From contig NZ_JAKIJS010000001.1 of the NCBI RefSeq assembly GCF_021608225.1, positions 2,418,001 through 2,482,000 of the forward strand: a stretch of 64,000 nt of DNA, given 5' to 3'. The DNA comes from Pseudalkalibacillus berkeleyi. GTDB lineage: Bacteria; Bacillota; Bacilli; Bacillales; Fictibacillaceae. Positions 29,195-40,556 of the stretch are shown here, in pieces. Position numbers and translations under genes: made by a program. The stretch's first letter is position 1. Every line of letters starts with the position of its first letter. The notes under the pieces were generated by a model. That model saw only the letters and a list, made by a program, of their open reading frames with translations. It was not told the origin of the DNA and ran no database searches.

Positions 29195-30262
29195 ATGAAA
29201 CGTATTTTGTTAACAGGTGGTGGGTCTACAGGTCACGTTGCGGTGAACCTTGCCCTCATTCCACATTTGAAACGTAATAATTGGGAGATTCATTATATTG
29301 GATCTCATAACGGCATAGAGCGCGAGTTAATTGAACCACTTGAAGATGTTCAATACTATCCGATTTCTACTGGAAAGCTCCGTCGTTATTTTGATGTGAA
29401 CAATTTTAAAGATCCGTTTAAAGTGATTAAGGGGATCGGTCAAGCATATCGTATTTTACGTAAAGTGAAGCCTGACATCGTCTTTTCTAAAGGTGGATTT
29501 GTCTCCGTACCCGTTATGCTCGCATCTAAATTGAATCGCACACCTTCAATCACACACGAATCAGATATGAGTCCAGGTCTAGCTAACAAAATTTCGATGC
29601 CTTTCGCGTCGAAAATCTGTGTGACGTTCCCCGAAACGCTAAAGCACTTACCTGAAGATAAAGGGGTATTGTTAGGGTCCATTGTACGTGAAGAATTACA
29701 TGAAGGAACAAGAAGAAAAGGACTCCACTTTTGTGACTTTACTGAGACCAAGCCTGTTATTCTGGTTATGGGTGGTAGCCAAGGTGCAAAGCACGTCAAC
29801 GAAACCATTCGGAAACTTGCGCCGAAATTGACACAGAAGTATCAAATTGTACATTTATGCGGTAAAGGTAAAGTGGATGATAGTATGAATATTCGTGGAT
29901 ACAGACAGTTTGAATATGTTAAGGAAGAGCTGCCTGATATTTTGGCGATGACTGATCTTGTTGTAACACGGGCTGGCTCAAACTCGATTTATGAGTTCCT
30001 AGACTTAGAAATTCCAATGATCCTGATTCCTCTCCCACTCAGCCAAAGTCGTGGAGATCAAATCCAAAATGCTGAGTCCTTTGAAAAGCAAGGATTTGCA
30101 GAAGTCATTCAAGAGGATGATCTAACTGAGGAAGGTTTGGAAGACTTAATTGAAAAAACGTATGAAAATCGATCCAAATATCGCAAAAACATGCAGCGAA
30201 GTGAACAAAGTAACCCGCTAGAGAAGCTTTATGGCCTTTTGGAAGAATATAGCCGGAGATAA
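29195..30262 (+). CDS. murG: MurG-type UDP-GlcNAc:lipid I transferase
   Basis: 355 residues from the ATG at 29195 (AAAGG nine bases upstream; an earlier ATG at 29186 sits directly on it). Two Rossmann domains: the N-terminal [14 protein letters not shown] loop binds lipid I and the C-terminal part has [13 protein letters not shown] and the sugar-nucleotide signature [24 protein letters not shown]. It adds GlcNAc to lipid I on the cytosolic face to make lipid II. It is alone, not in a dcw cluster, so it may be the main MurG of the genome or a second copy. Confidence 0.92.
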
Positions 30263-36663: not shown

Positions 36664-36713
36664 TTAAAAAAGAGCTGCCCCAATGACAGATGATATCTTT
36701 TGGGTCAGCTCTT
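36664..36713 (-). terminator. ars operon terminator
   Basis: AAGAGCTG.CCCA pairs with TGGG.CAGCTCTT; T-run on the minus strand just after the HesB-like gene. Confidence 0.85.
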
Positions 36714-36726
36714 CTCGTTCTTTCTT

Positions 36727-37008
36727 TTAGCAGCAGTCTTCTTGACCGAGGAAAACGAGTCCTGCGCCTTCGTCGGTTTGTTGGAAGTCTACTATAAGAT
36801 CCTGTGTATGTGTAACGATACGTTCATCAAATGATACACGGATGCCGTTCAATTCTTCTACTTTGTCCGTTTCTTGTGGCTCATCCAGAGCCATTCCCAA
36901 TTTGGGACCACCTCAGCCCATACCTGCAAAATAAATACGGATTCCTTTTGCATCGTGCTGATGAAGGATCCCTTCAATCGCTTGTTTCGCTTTATCTGTA
37001 ATTTGCAA
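36727..37008 (-). CDS. HesB/IscA-like protein with in-frame UGA (candidate selenoprotein)
   Basis: 93 codons from a TTG at 37008 (GAGGGGG about 10 bases upstream) to TAA at 36727. Codon 32 is TGA (36913-36915), in the context AGMG-TGA-GGPKLGMAL; in the Cys-bearing relatives I know this position is the conserved cysteine of HesB-like proteins (GMGCGGP). The frame is otherwise open and ends in a CC pair, as usual for this family. A hairpin 25 bases after the UGA (36877-36893) fits a bacterial SECIS. Fifth and last gene of arsR-arsB-arsC-arsI-hesB. Alternatives: a single-base nonsense mutation or a sequencing error. Sec decoding needs selA, selB, selC and selD elsewhere; none is in this window. 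Confidence 0.75.
36877..36893 (-). other. Candidate bacterial SECIS hairpin
   Basis: On the minus strand: TGGCTC, loop TGGAT, GAGCCA. A six-pair stem with a five-base loop carrying G in its first two bases, with 25 bases between the UGA and the loop. This matches the general description of bSECIS elements (loop about 16-37 bases after the UGA). A nearer hairpin TCCC/GGGA lies too close to the UGA. Confidence 0.5.
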
Positions 37009-37086
37009 TGATCTTCCCCCTCACTCTATCTTTGGTAGACTCTCTCAGTGTAGTGTATTCGCGAGCAATCCTCAACGATAATCGAC

Positions 37087-37554
37087 CTATTTCTTAGGAG
37101 ATGTTAATTCTATATTAATCGCTTGAGGCTTTGGAGGTGCACAACATAGGGACATATCCCGAGCATCTCCAGCAGACTCAAATTCTGAATCCTCTTTCGT
37201 GTAGAAAATTTCCCACGCATTCCCGTCAGGATCATACACCCACACTTTATCTTGCACAGCGTAACAACAAGTCGTATCCATCTCATCTATTAATAATAAT
37301 CCCGATTCACGAAGGCGCTCACCCATTTTCAGGACATCTTCAGTATTGTCCACTTGGAATCCTAAGTGATTCAACACACCGTCTTTGTTGAAATCACGTT
37401 CGTTCAGTGAGAAATGTAGAGCTGGTGAATCGAGCTCGAATTTAGCATAATTCTCCTTCACCTTAGTCGGACCTTCACCGAAGAAACTTTTATAAAATGC
37501 CAACGACTTCTCCAAATCACTGCAGTTTACAGCAACATGCATTCGGTTAATCAT
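37087..37554 (-). CDS. arsI: ArsI/CadI-type VOC-fold protein
   Basis: 155 residues with the vicinal-oxygen-chelate fold: metal-binding HVAVNCSDLEKSLAFY at the start, LNHLGFQV in the middle and a glutamate in GNAWEIFYT. The paired cysteines in DTTCCYA are the mark of ArsI, which splits the carbon-arsenic bond of trivalent methyl and phenyl arsenicals using Fe(II) and oxygen; a second CC pair lies near the end (SLCCAPP). CadI heavy-metal proteins share this family. In the ars operon after arsC. Confidence 0.9.
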   Translation of the reverse strand: MINRMHVAVNCSDLEKSLAFYKSFFGEGPTKVKENYAKFELDSPALHFSLNERDFNKDGVLNHLGFQVDNTEDVLKMGERLRESGLLLIDEMDTTCCYAVQDKVWVYDPDGNAWEIFYTKEDSEFESAGDARDMSLCCAPPKPQAINIELTSPKK

Positions 37555-37575: not shown

Positions 37576-37995
37576 TTACTTGCCTTCTTTTGCAAACTTT
37601 TGAATTCGTTCTTCGATTTCATTACGAACGCGCTGGAAGAATGCCCATTTTTCCTCTTCTGTTCCTTCCGCTTTCGCAGGATCATCAAAACCCCAGTGGT
37701 CATTTTTTACATGGGAAGGTGTTGTCGGACATTTGTCAGCTGCATCTCCACAAAGTGTAACGACAAGATCCGCTTTATTCAAAATTTCACGATCAATGAT
37801 ATCTGAAGTTTGGTCTGTAATATCAATTTCAACTTCGTTCATTGCTTTTACCGCATTCGGGTTCAGTCCATGTGCTTCGATTCCTGCAGAATAGACGTCA
37901 TAACGATCTCCTAAGTATTTCTTTCCAAATCCTTCTGCCATCTGACTGCGGCAAGAATTCCCTGTGCACAAAAAGTAAATAATCGGTTTAGACAT
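37576..37995 (-). CDS. arsC: Arsenate reductase (thioredoxin-coupled)
   Basis: 139 residues, low-molecular-weight phosphatase fold. Catalytic loop [14 protein letters not shown] (first Cys near residue 11), and the second and third redox cysteines in [12 protein letters not shown]. Matches the Bacillus/pI258 ArsC type that reduces arsenate to arsenite with thioredoxin. Located between arsB and arsI. Confidence 0.96.
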
Positions 37996-38021: not shown

Positions 38022-39320
38022 TTATGAAATAATCGAAAGCCAAATATATAGGCCGGTTAATGTGATAAATAGTGTTGGAACGGTCAGGATAATTCCGATT
38101 TTAAAATAGTATCCCCATGATATTTTAACACCTTTTAACGATAGAACGTGAAGCCAAAGTAACGTTGCAAGGGACCCAATCGGTGTAATTTTCGGACCTA
38201 AGTCTGATCCAATCACATTCGCATAAATCAATGCTTCACGGATTGTACCGCTCGTCGCCGTATCTTGAATCGCTAGTGCATCAATCATAACGGTCGGCAT
38301 ATTGTTCATAATCGACGACAAGATTGCCGCAATGAAGCCCATTGAAATCGTCGCCACGAATAAACCTTGATCAGCTGCTGCTTCAATTACGACAGCCAAT
38401 ACATCCGTTAACCCTTCATTTCGCAAACCATAAACGACAACGTACATTCCGATGGAGAAGAACACGATTGCCCAAGGTGCACCCTTTATCACCTTCTTTG
38501 TTTCAACTGCTGAGCTTTTACGAGCCATGAATAAGAAGAAAATCGCGACAATACCGGCAATAATCGAAACCGGAATACCGAAAAATTCACTCGCAAAATA
38601 TCCGCTCAACAATACCGTAAGTACAAGCCAAGATAATCGGAACATCTTATCATCTCGAATAGCTTCAACCGGCTTCTTTAACTGATCTACTTCGTAGTCT
38701 TTCGGTATATCTTTTCGGAAAAATAACCACAAGACCGCAATACTCGCAACAATTGAGAACAAGTTCGGAACAACCATCCGTGATGCATACTCAACAAATC
38801 CAATATCAAACACATCTGCGGAAACGATGTTCACAAGATTACTGACAACGAGCGGTAAGGATGTTGTATCCGCGATAAATCCACTCGCCATAATGAACGG
38901 GAATATCATGCGCTCTTTAAAGTTGAGTGCCCGTACCATCGCAAGGACGATCGGTGTCAAAATCAACGCAGCACCGTCATTCGCGAAAAATGCCGCGACA
39001 ATTGCACCTAAGATCGTTACGTAAATGAACATCTTCACGCCGTTACCTTTTGCAATCCGTGCCATATGTAAAGCAGACCACTCAAAGAACCCAATCTCGT
39101 CTAATATAAGTGAAATGATGATGATTGCGATGAAAGCAAGTGTCGCGTTCCAAACGATATCCGTGACAGCAACGACATCACCTAAATTAACGACACCTAC
39201 AAGTAATGCTACAATTGCGCCCCCACAAGCTGACCATCCAATTCCTAAACCTTTAGGTTGCCAGATGACAAGGACTAATGTAATGACAAATATAATGACT
39301 GATAAAAATACTGATAACAA
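38022..39320 (-). CDS. arsB: ArsB arsenite efflux permease
   Basis: 432 residues with 11-12 membrane helices, of the ArsB/NhaD ion transporter superfamily, with the ArsB segments [20 protein letters not shown] and [14 protein letters not shown]. It expels arsenite and antimonite using membrane potential; no arsA is present. Second gene of the ars operon. Confidence 0.95.
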
Positions 39321-39353: not shown

Positions 39354-39698
39354 TTACGTACAGCTTATACTCAATCCAGCTTTCTCGAGATCCTCTAGCT
39401 GTTTTTCAGAGTCAGGAACATAGTTCAATATATCTTTTACCAACGGATACCCTTCATATTCTTGATTAATGGAATAATAAATCCATTGACCCTTTCGAGT
39501 TTCCTTAACGAGTCTTGCATCTCTTAGTTTGCGCAAGTGCTGACTAATCGAAGGCTGGCTCATCTGGATGATTTCAACAAACTCACAGACACAACACTCT
39601 CTCACATTTAATAATCCCATAATCGTTAGCCTCGTTTTATCTCCAAGAAGCTTCACAGTTTGGGACACTTCTGTCATATTTAAAGCCGTTTCTTTCAT
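39354..39698 (-). CDS. arsR: ArsR family arsenic-responsive repressor
   Basis: 114 residues from the ATG at 39698 (GGGGGTGA close upstream; TTG one codon earlier also open). Winged helix with recognition helix QPSISQHLRKLRDARLV; metal-binding ECCVCEF corresponds to the ELCVCDL site of ArsR. A further Cys lies at the very C-terminus (SISCT). As(III) binding frees the operator at 39725-39746 and the operon downstream. Confidence 0.95.
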   Translation of the reverse strand: MKETALNMTEVSQTVKLLGDKTRLTIMGLLNVRECCVCEFVEIIQMSQPSISQHLRKLRDARLVKETRKGQWIYYSINQEYEGYPLVKDILNYVPDSEKQLEDLEKAGLSISCT

Positions 39699-39724
39699 CA
39701 ACTCACCCCCTTATCGATTATCAT

Positions 39725-39819: not shown

Positions 39820-40200
39820 TTGAACCTGCTAATGGTTGTAATCGGAGGTTTTTTTGGATCTATTTTCAGATTTCTACTCGGAGAATGGATCCCAACTTCA
39901 TCAGGATTTCCAATAGGTACATTAACTGTGAACCTCTTAGGCTGCTTGTTTCTCGGTTGGTTTACTGCCTTTTTGTTGCAGAAATTTTTACATACCCAGT
40001 TGATCCTGCTTATTGGAACTGGCTTTACAGGCTCTTTCACAACCTTTTCAACCTTTTCAGTAGAAACGGTTCACCTCATGCAAAACGGACTTTTCCTAAT
40101 TGCAGGTTCTTATGTGGTAATCAGCGTCTTAGTCGGCATTGCTCTAGCGTTCTTCGGTTATAAAATCGGATTAAAGCCTAAAGTAGGTGATCTCCAATGA
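39820..40200 (+). CDS. crcB: CrcB/Fluc fluoride channel subunit 1
   Basis: 126 residues, four membrane helices. Signatures GGFFGSIFRFLLGEW (start), GTLTVNLLGCLFLG (break of helix 2) and GFTGSFTTFSTFSVE with the phenylalanines of the fluoride path. TTG start with GAGGTGTG upstream. The stop overlaps the start of the second subunit by four bases. Twin crcB genes encode antiparallel heterodimers that export fluoride. No fluoride riboswitch is seen upstream. Confidence 0.95.
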   Translation: MNLLMVVIGGFFGSIFRFLLGEWIPTSSGFPIGTLTVNLLGCLFLGWFTAFLLQKFLHTQLILLIGTGFTGSFTTFSTFSVETVHLMQNGLFLIAGSYVVISVLVGIALAFFGYKIGLKPKVGDLQ

Positions 40201-40556
40201 TGATCTTGATTGGATTAGGAGGCTCACTAGGGGCAGCAGCGCGGTATTTAATCGGACAATTTTTACATAATAAAAGCCCTAACAGCTGGATGAATGGGAC
40301 TTGGGTCGTCAATATTGCAGGCTCCTTTCTGTTAGGAATACTTGCAAGCTTATACACAACTGATTCACTCACAGAATGGATCTGGTTGTTTTTCGGAATT
40401 GGCTTTTGCGGAGCTTTTACGACGTTTTCAACCTTTAGTGTGGAAGCGCTCAAAATGCTCCAAAGCGAAAAGTACACACAAGCTATCCTTTATATCGTCA
40501 CTTCAGTTTTCCTTGGAGCAATCGCAGCATTCACCGGATTTATAGTTGAAATATAA
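40197..40556 (+). CDS. crcB: CrcB/Fluc fluoride channel subunit 2
   Basis: 119 residues, four membrane helices; signatures GGSLGAAARYLIGQ, GTWVVNIAGSFLLG and GFCGAFTTFSTFSVE. Paralogue of the preceding gene, which it overlaps by four bases; the pair should form one heterodimeric channel with opposed topology. Followed by a strong terminator. Confidence 0.95.
   Translation: MMILIGLGGSLGAAARYLIGQFLHNKSPNSWMNGTWVVNIAGSFLLGILASLYTTDSLTEWIWLFFGIGFCGAFTTFSTFSVEALKMLQSEKYTQAILYIVTSVFLGAIAAFTGFIVEI

Follow-up and report, generated by a model that had tools for sequence, protein, structure and literature searches.

An ars operon closed by a hesB-like gene with an in-frame TGA codon

The DNA analysed here, called the window in the following, is a stretch of 64,000 nucleotides from contig NZ_JAKIJS010000001.1 of Pseudalkalibacillus berkeleyi. 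On the minus strand of the window, we found genes in the order arsR-arsB-arsC-arsI-hesB, separated by gaps of 33, 26, 21 and 78 bases as counted from the ends of the open reading frames. The first gene of the operon, arsR (39354..39701), codes for a metalloregulator (NF033788, 95.3 bits with a cut-off of 55; PF01022) and is followed by arsB (38022..39320) for an arsenite efflux pump (TIGR00935, 758 bits; PF02040, 738 bits), arsC (37576..37995) for a thioredoxin-type arsenate reductase (TIGR02691, 235.4 bits with a cut-off of 174.3) and a gene for an ArsI/CadI-type dioxygenase of the C-As lyase family (37087..37554; NF041414, 159.3 bits with a cut-off of 116). These family matches bear out the proposal of the initial annotation, made from the sequence alone, that the hesB-like gene closes an ars operon.

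The hesB-like gene itself (36727..37008, minus strand) is an open reading frame of 93 codons, running from a TTG start at 37008 to 36727, with a single in-frame TGA at codon 32 (36913..36915). The TGA is embedded in the motif GMG-TGA-GGP and the frame ends in CC; length, coordinates, TGA, motif and ending were all as initially annotated. The good ribosome-binding site claimed for the gene was recovered as the sequence AGGGGG (37016..37021), 7 bases 5' of the TTG. Behind hesB, an inverted repeat of 14 bases with 93% complementarity (36713-36670) is followed by a run of T's, and a terminator pattern scan placed one site there, but the scan gave 2 sites in total versus 2.5 in shuffled sequences. 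We regard this element (36670..36713, minus strand) as a probable intrinsic terminator and, since the repeat and the T tract lie behind hesB, hesB as the final gene of the operon by layout. The short gaps, together with the inverted repeat and T tract, suggest that hesB is co-transcribed with the ars genes.

At gathering thresholds, Rfam gave three matches in the whole window, none of them close to the hesB-like gene. A weak match to the Staphylococcus sRNA S414 (47.1 bits with a cut-off of 45) was seen at 29720-29894 on the minus strand. Beside the ars operon (39820-40556), two small genes resemble, as judged by eye, a CrcB/Fluc fluoride exporter pair, and CrcB/Fluc-like pairs were also seen near several Fictibacillus hesB genes with a Sec codon.

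Selenocysteine machinery of the genome

The genome of P. berkeleyi (3.5 Mb, 99.97% complete) was searched for the components of selenocysteine (Sec) insertion, as had been proposed along with the initial annotation. All four genes were found within about 10 kb: selA (556 bits), selB (353 bits with a cut-off of 242), selC for tRNA-Sec (59.9 bits, tca anticodon) and selD, which carries an in-frame TGA of its own in the context GG-U-GC. The possibility that the machinery is absent is thereby ruled out. Formate dehydrogenase was considered as the main client of this machinery and rejected, as none of the three FdhA-like matches in the genome was over the cut-off and none had an internal TGA. The statement that Sec use is rare in Bacillaceae needs softening, as 46 of the 60 genomes surveyed, with P. 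berkeleyi among them, have a selB match over the cut-off.

Between selB and selD of the same cluster (L010:7545-10992), there are genes for a PhnDEC-like ABC transporter (selenate-type model TIGR04553, 184 bits with a cut-off of 250) and for a glycosyltransferase with a match to SenB (87.7 bits with a cut-off of 300), which are possibly involved in selenium uptake or the formation of a selenium sugar.

Conservation of the TGA codon and selection on the protein

Alignment of close relatives had been suggested as a check of codon 32. The open reading frame with a TGA at this codon is present in all seven further genomes sampled from the genus, in five cases at 80-85% and in two at 65% identity; the TGA is therefore no sequencing error and the frame no product of chance. 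For the region downstream of the TGA, we obtained dN/dS values of 0.055-0.296 (8 pairs within the genus), and the protein beyond the stop is therefore under selection. Decay of the frame in relatives, named at the outset as a finding that would speak against a selenoprotein, was not seen: the frames are intact and constrained after the TGA.

Across the 60 genomes, a TGA-bearing ortholog was detected at E <= 2e-16 in 32 (P. berkeleyi included), and in all 32, each of which was read, the TGA occupies the corresponding codon. Three genomes have a stop-free ortholog at this threshold; the two that were read both have Cys (L038, L040), and the third is in genome G058. selB was over the cut-off in 31/32 genomes with a TGA-bearing ortholog and in none of the three with a stop-free ortholog. 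Compared with 15 of the 28 remaining genomes, the association of selB with the TGA gene has a Fisher p of 1e-4, in a calculation that ignores kinship. One genome of the genus, G007, has the TGA gene without a match for selA and with selB and selD matches below the cut-off. Its assembly, with a stated completeness of 99%, also gave no match for the open reading frame next to selA or the beginning of the adjoining aconitase gene, which makes an assembly gap likelier than a true loss of the sel genes.

The SECIS hairpin

The hairpin of six pairs with a G-containing loop of five bases, which was initially noticed 25 bases past the UGA, was confirmed at 36893-36877 on the minus strand. Its sequence is TGGCTC-TGGAT-GAGCCA, with the loop UGGAU, and its energy is -9.2 kcal/mol when folded alone. 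The bacterial SECIS model described in section 5 of the review PMC13188914 has a loop of 3-9 nt at 16-37 nt from the UGA, a stem of 4-16 bp, a G in loop positions 1-2 and a minimum free energy of at most -7.5 kcal/mol; a pair between loop positions N1 and N2 is given there as frequent and optional. Loop, stem length, spacing and energy of the hairpin (36877..36893) all lie within these numeric limits, and the N1-N2 pair is absent (U, U). The best fold of the 52-base stretch after the TGA includes the hairpin, with a z-score of -1.89 and 7 of 200 shuffled sequences folding as well.

For comparison, we used the 78 bases from the UGA onward in 110 loci, consisting of 30 loci of the genome survey and 80 loci from named relatives with some genomes in both, which gave 85 distinct sequences (77 Sec, 8 Cys). 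The loop codons CTG-GAT do not vary in any of the 77 Sec rows. The G of the loop corresponds to the last base of the Leu codon, where none of the eight Cys rows has a G, but three of eight Cys copies from plasmids do. The stem with all five pairs compared is complete in 68/77 Sec rows versus none of 15 distinct Cys sequences (the eight rows plus the eight plasmid copies, one of which repeats a row). When the Sec rows were recoded synonymously in 1000 sets, a complete stem was obtained in 0.75 of the 77 rows on average and never in more than 5. In a set of 44 hand-picked Sec rows, 94.8% of the stem cells are paired; the number of cells changed on both sides of the stem is 27 versus 7.3 in shuffles, and the covariation score is 0.329 versus 0.142, in both cases with 0/500 shuffles as high. 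Versions of the stem slid along the alignment all scored at most 0.068. Two further measures on the same 44 rows were not outstanding, namely the number of pairs in which both sides have changed (4 versus 2.5; 15 of 500 shuffles as high) and of further pair types (7 versus 6.4; 224 of 500 as high). The clearest compensatory case, found in seven rows, combines Ala GCT->GCG with Glu->Ala GAG->GCG, whereby the stem is kept and the protein altered.

Folding energy is weaker evidence for the SECIS than conservation and comparison: with the 21 nt of the hairpin folded by themselves, 71 of the 77 Sec rows attain -7.5 kcal/mol, but the best fold of the 78 bases holds all five pairs in 49 and none of them in 25. 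Among 13 additional Sec copies, which partly come from genomes included above, 12 have the loop TGGAT and one has TGGAG. A Cys copy on a plasmid of Planococcus glaciei (L154:5001-5279) has retained the loop TGGAT and four of the five stem pairs; judged from this sequence, the partial hairpin may be the remnant SECIS of a former Sec gene.

Predicted fold and candidate ligand residues

An AlphaFold2 model of the protein, based on an alignment of 40 rows, had a pLDDT of 92.8, with low values for the last residues including the Cys pair (block mean pLDDT of 58). The top Foldseek match of this model was IscA (1r94, TM 0.80), SufA (2d2a) matched with a TM of 0.75, and the seven matches at E <= 0.001 were four IscA chains, HI1723, AQ_1857 and DsrR. 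The protein is thus predicted to have the IscA fold. Sec32 aligned with the first Cys of IscA in a profile search and with the first Cys of the SufA-like protein of the same genome in a pairwise alignment (29% identity over 65 residues), which agrees with the initial assignment of the TGA to a conserved Cys position. In the 40-row alignment, Sec/Cys32 and Cys92 are invariant; the final Cys, which aligned with Cys99 of IscA in a weak match, is not present in every row.

A-type Fe-S carriers bind their cargo by three ligand residues arranged as C ... CxC. The corresponding candidate residues of the protein are U32, C92 and C93. The protein resembles IscA, SufA and ErpA in its predicted fold and in having Sec at the position of the first conserved Cys, but differs from them by the replacement of this Cys by Sec and by the lack of a Cys-x-Cys near the C-terminal end. 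The genome codes for three other proteins of the Fe-S_biosyn family over the Pfam cut-off. The UxGP motif of HesB-like selenoproteins is present as U-G-G-P, and a UxxC or CxxU motif is absent from the protein. In comparison to the curated families TIGR01911 (HesB_rel_seleno) and NF038090 (IscA_HesB_Se), the protein agrees in length, fold class, UxGP motif and the presence of Sec at the first IscA Cys, but its scores are below both cut-offs (52.8 bits versus 66.35 and 58.9 bits versus 85, respectively), it ends in a Cys pair and its gene is located in an ars operon. All ten relatives that we tested against the two models were also below both cut-offs.

Relatives, ars linkage and Cys forms

Within the genus, the order arsB-arsC-arsI-hesB was found in six of the seven other genomes, and in the seventh, an intact hesB is preceded by no more than remnants of these three ars genes. 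In P. decolorationis (L017/L050/L065), decayed pieces of arsB, arsC and arsI lie ahead of an intact, TGA-bearing hesB, and there is a second ars operon with a hesB of its own (L051). Elsewhere, hesB follows arsR-arsB-arsC-arsD-arsA or the later genes of this order, and in other Bacillales and on plasmids, hesB-like relatives of both the Sec and the Cys form close ars operons or are located close to their end.

The named relatives, which account for 80 of 121 confirmed loci, carry about 20 Bacillota genus names as given in the records. Genes for ars functions were found within 6 kb in 25 of these 80 loci (16 Sec, 9 Cys) and were not found in the other 55, all of which are Sec (55 of 71 Sec loci); the queries covered ars genes other than ACR3-type pumps, and some loci end at contig ends, where ars genes may be missed. 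With 55 loci lacking nearby ars genes, arsenic cannot be the sole role of the family. Two strongly diverged second HesB-like copies (L058 in G033 and L059 in G022) have a TGA and the same SECIS loop; as judged by eye, their neighbours include a CsoR-like regulator and rhodanese/TusA/DsrE-like genes. Near copies outside of ars operons (L066-L080, L084 and others; seven genera), a gene for a ZnuA-like metal-binding protein, likewise assigned by eye, often lies within several kb, in differing places and on differing strands, and we therefore draw no function from it.

All 11 plasmid regions that we inspected, out of 19 plasmid matches, are ars operons. Three of these 11 copies are Sec forms from Cytobacillus with the same SECIS and eight are Cys forms. 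The plasmid gene tables are incomplete, with no gene listed at five Cytobacillus matches, of which three were read and found to be Sec; in two of these three plasmid records, both neighbouring genes are annotated and the hesB-like gene is missing from the list. On several Bacillales plasmids (L150, L153, L157 and others), the Cys form is called 'adhesin', which looks like a naming error; elsewhere, plasmid Cys forms are labelled as Fe-S protein.

The Cys sequences have C-C-G-P where the Sec rows have U-G-G-P, U-G-S-P or U-G-Q-P. In a tree of 106 genes, reduced to 97 rows by dropping identical ones, the Cys form corresponds to one change (clade support 91/91) and ars linkage to four changes. 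Since the tree is unrooted and has few columns, the change between Sec and Cys is given here without a direction.

Discussion

HesB-like selenoproteins and HesB-like genes in ars operons were each known before, and in P. berkeleyi the two are joined. The former are a listed family with the UxGP motif in Table 1 of PMC13188914, in line with the initial statement that HesB-like proteins are among the reported bacterial selenoprotein families. Eleven such proteins were counted in 2006 (PMC1794560), and mutagenesis together with 75Se labelling led to the identification of a member in the archaeon Methanococcus maripaludis, whose function is described as unclear (PMC11097638; table row in PMC2933860). 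As for the latter, the ars1 operon of Bacillus sp. CDB3, arsRYCDATorf7orf8, has the HesB-like orf7 near its end (PMC4562236, PMC5481582), and a hesB gene is reported in an ars operon of Exiguobacterium aurantiacum (PMC8779447). The string 'selen' does not occur in the available text of PMC4562236, where orf7 is described. The operon of P. berkeleyi differs from ars1 by the presence of arsI and the absence of arsD and arsA, and orf7 is likened here to our gene by description and place. A functional study of orf7 (pmid 24218851) is cited in this literature. Selenoproteins of the Sec-assisted organometallic (SAO) operon are likewise tied to metal(loid) resistance, and SaoC is a protein ending in Cys-Cys-COOH (PMC13188914); going by the descriptions, these are separate families in a different operon. 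In literature searches that were mostly judged from titles and had subscription literature largely outside their range, among them one on selenocysteine in Bacillaceae, we recognised no publication on a Sec form of HesB in an ars operon.

We are confident, on computational grounds, of the gene, its Sec codon, the SECIS, the machinery and the conserved place in the operon. Ribosomes would decode the UGA at 36915-36913 as Sec with the SelA, SelB, SelC and SelD of the cell, and the hairpin at 36893-36877 would direct the insertion. In this way, a small carrier of the IscA/HesB fold would be made alongside ArsR, ArsB, ArsC and ArsI once arsenic relieves ArsR, with Sec32 and the C-terminal Cys92-Cys93 presumably standing at the metal-binding Cys places of IscA-type proteins. 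The likeliest use of this soft Se/S ligand set would be to hold trivalent arsenic or any iron that it endangers, and the carrier might buffer the metalloid or hand it over ahead of the efflux pump and ArsI. As for the initial inference of a redox-active Sec linked to arsenic detoxification, the Sec may be redox-active or bind a metal(loid), and the link to arsenic at the genomic level is strong in the genus and several others. As(III) favours three soft ligands and As-Se bonds are strong, so that Sec32 and the Cys pair are a plausible arsenic site. That the protein binds As(III) is something we consider quite possible, at a little less than an even chance. More tentatively, we propose that Sec32 and Cys92-Cys93 together coordinate As(III) or methyl-As(III) in a Se/S site of three ligands, that Bacillales use the Se-As bond in a dedicated carrier encoded at the end of ars operons, and that, where Sec is not decoded, Cys-Cys (C-C-G-P) takes the place of Sec-Gly (U-G-G-P).

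The same selenoprotein could instead be a carrier of Fe-S clusters or iron, which repairs clusters or gives Fe(II) to ArsI under arsenite without arsenic as a ligand. This reading, which we hold to be equally tentative, is favoured by the predicted IscA fold, by a weak match to IscA that places Sec on its first Cys and the last Cys on Cys99, by arsI, a gene whose family is named as a metalloenzyme, directly upstream, and by the many copies distant from ars genes, whereas plasmids of the arsRBCDA-hesB type keep the gene and have no arsI among the genes listed within 5 kb, adjacent Cys residues or a single Cys stand in place of the Cys-x-Cys of IscA, and the genome has its three other Fe-S_biosyn genes. 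Since many copies lie outside of ars operons, the older role of the family would be wider, perhaps in iron or Fe-S metabolism, with arsenic as one use. We consider it unlikely that the protein works in thiol/selenol redox catalysis, for instance as a reductase of ArsC or ArsI or by supplying one of them with electrons: a UxxC or CxxU motif is missing and the predicted fold is the one of a metal carrier, even if a trxB or phosphatase gene neighbours both Sec and Cys forms on plasmids, and most uncharacterised selenoproteins are likely redox proteins according to the selenoprotein review (PMC13188914). An ordinary HesB-like selenoprotein that came to lie in ars operons by chance is more improbable still; the 55 of 71 Sec loci without ars genes nearby would fit such a passenger, but both forms, Sec and Cys, keep to the operon end or its vicinity in two layouts (arsI type and arsDA type), whether on a plasmid or a chromosome, and orf7 is similarly placed in CDB3. 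A true stop that leaves a peptide of 31 residues, be it by nonsense mutation, sequencing error or in a pseudogene, has a negligible probability despite the one genus genome, G007, with the TGA gene and no detectable selA or selB, as it is opposed by the 31 other sampled genomes with a TGA at this codon, the strong constraint after it, the covarying SECIS and the full machinery, and a nonsense mutation or sequencing error at codon 32 is ruled out by the conservation, the dN/dS values and the SECIS.

HesB-like selenoproteins have been known for about two decades without a function being given in the available texts (PMC1794560, PMC2933860, PMC11097638), and the conserved position as closing gene of ars operons is a first specific and testable lead on it. 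Genes of this kind are easily overlooked, as they score below the cut-offs of the curated models, are unlisted in two plasmid records and, in their Cys forms, appear as 'adhesin' or Fe-S protein. In the Cys clade, C-C stands for U-G, and nature itself thereby provides a pair for comparing the chemistry of Sec and Cys at the same site. Finally, the occurrence of Sec forms on plasmids suggests that this arsenic gene would depend for its spread on hosts with the machinery for selenocysteine.
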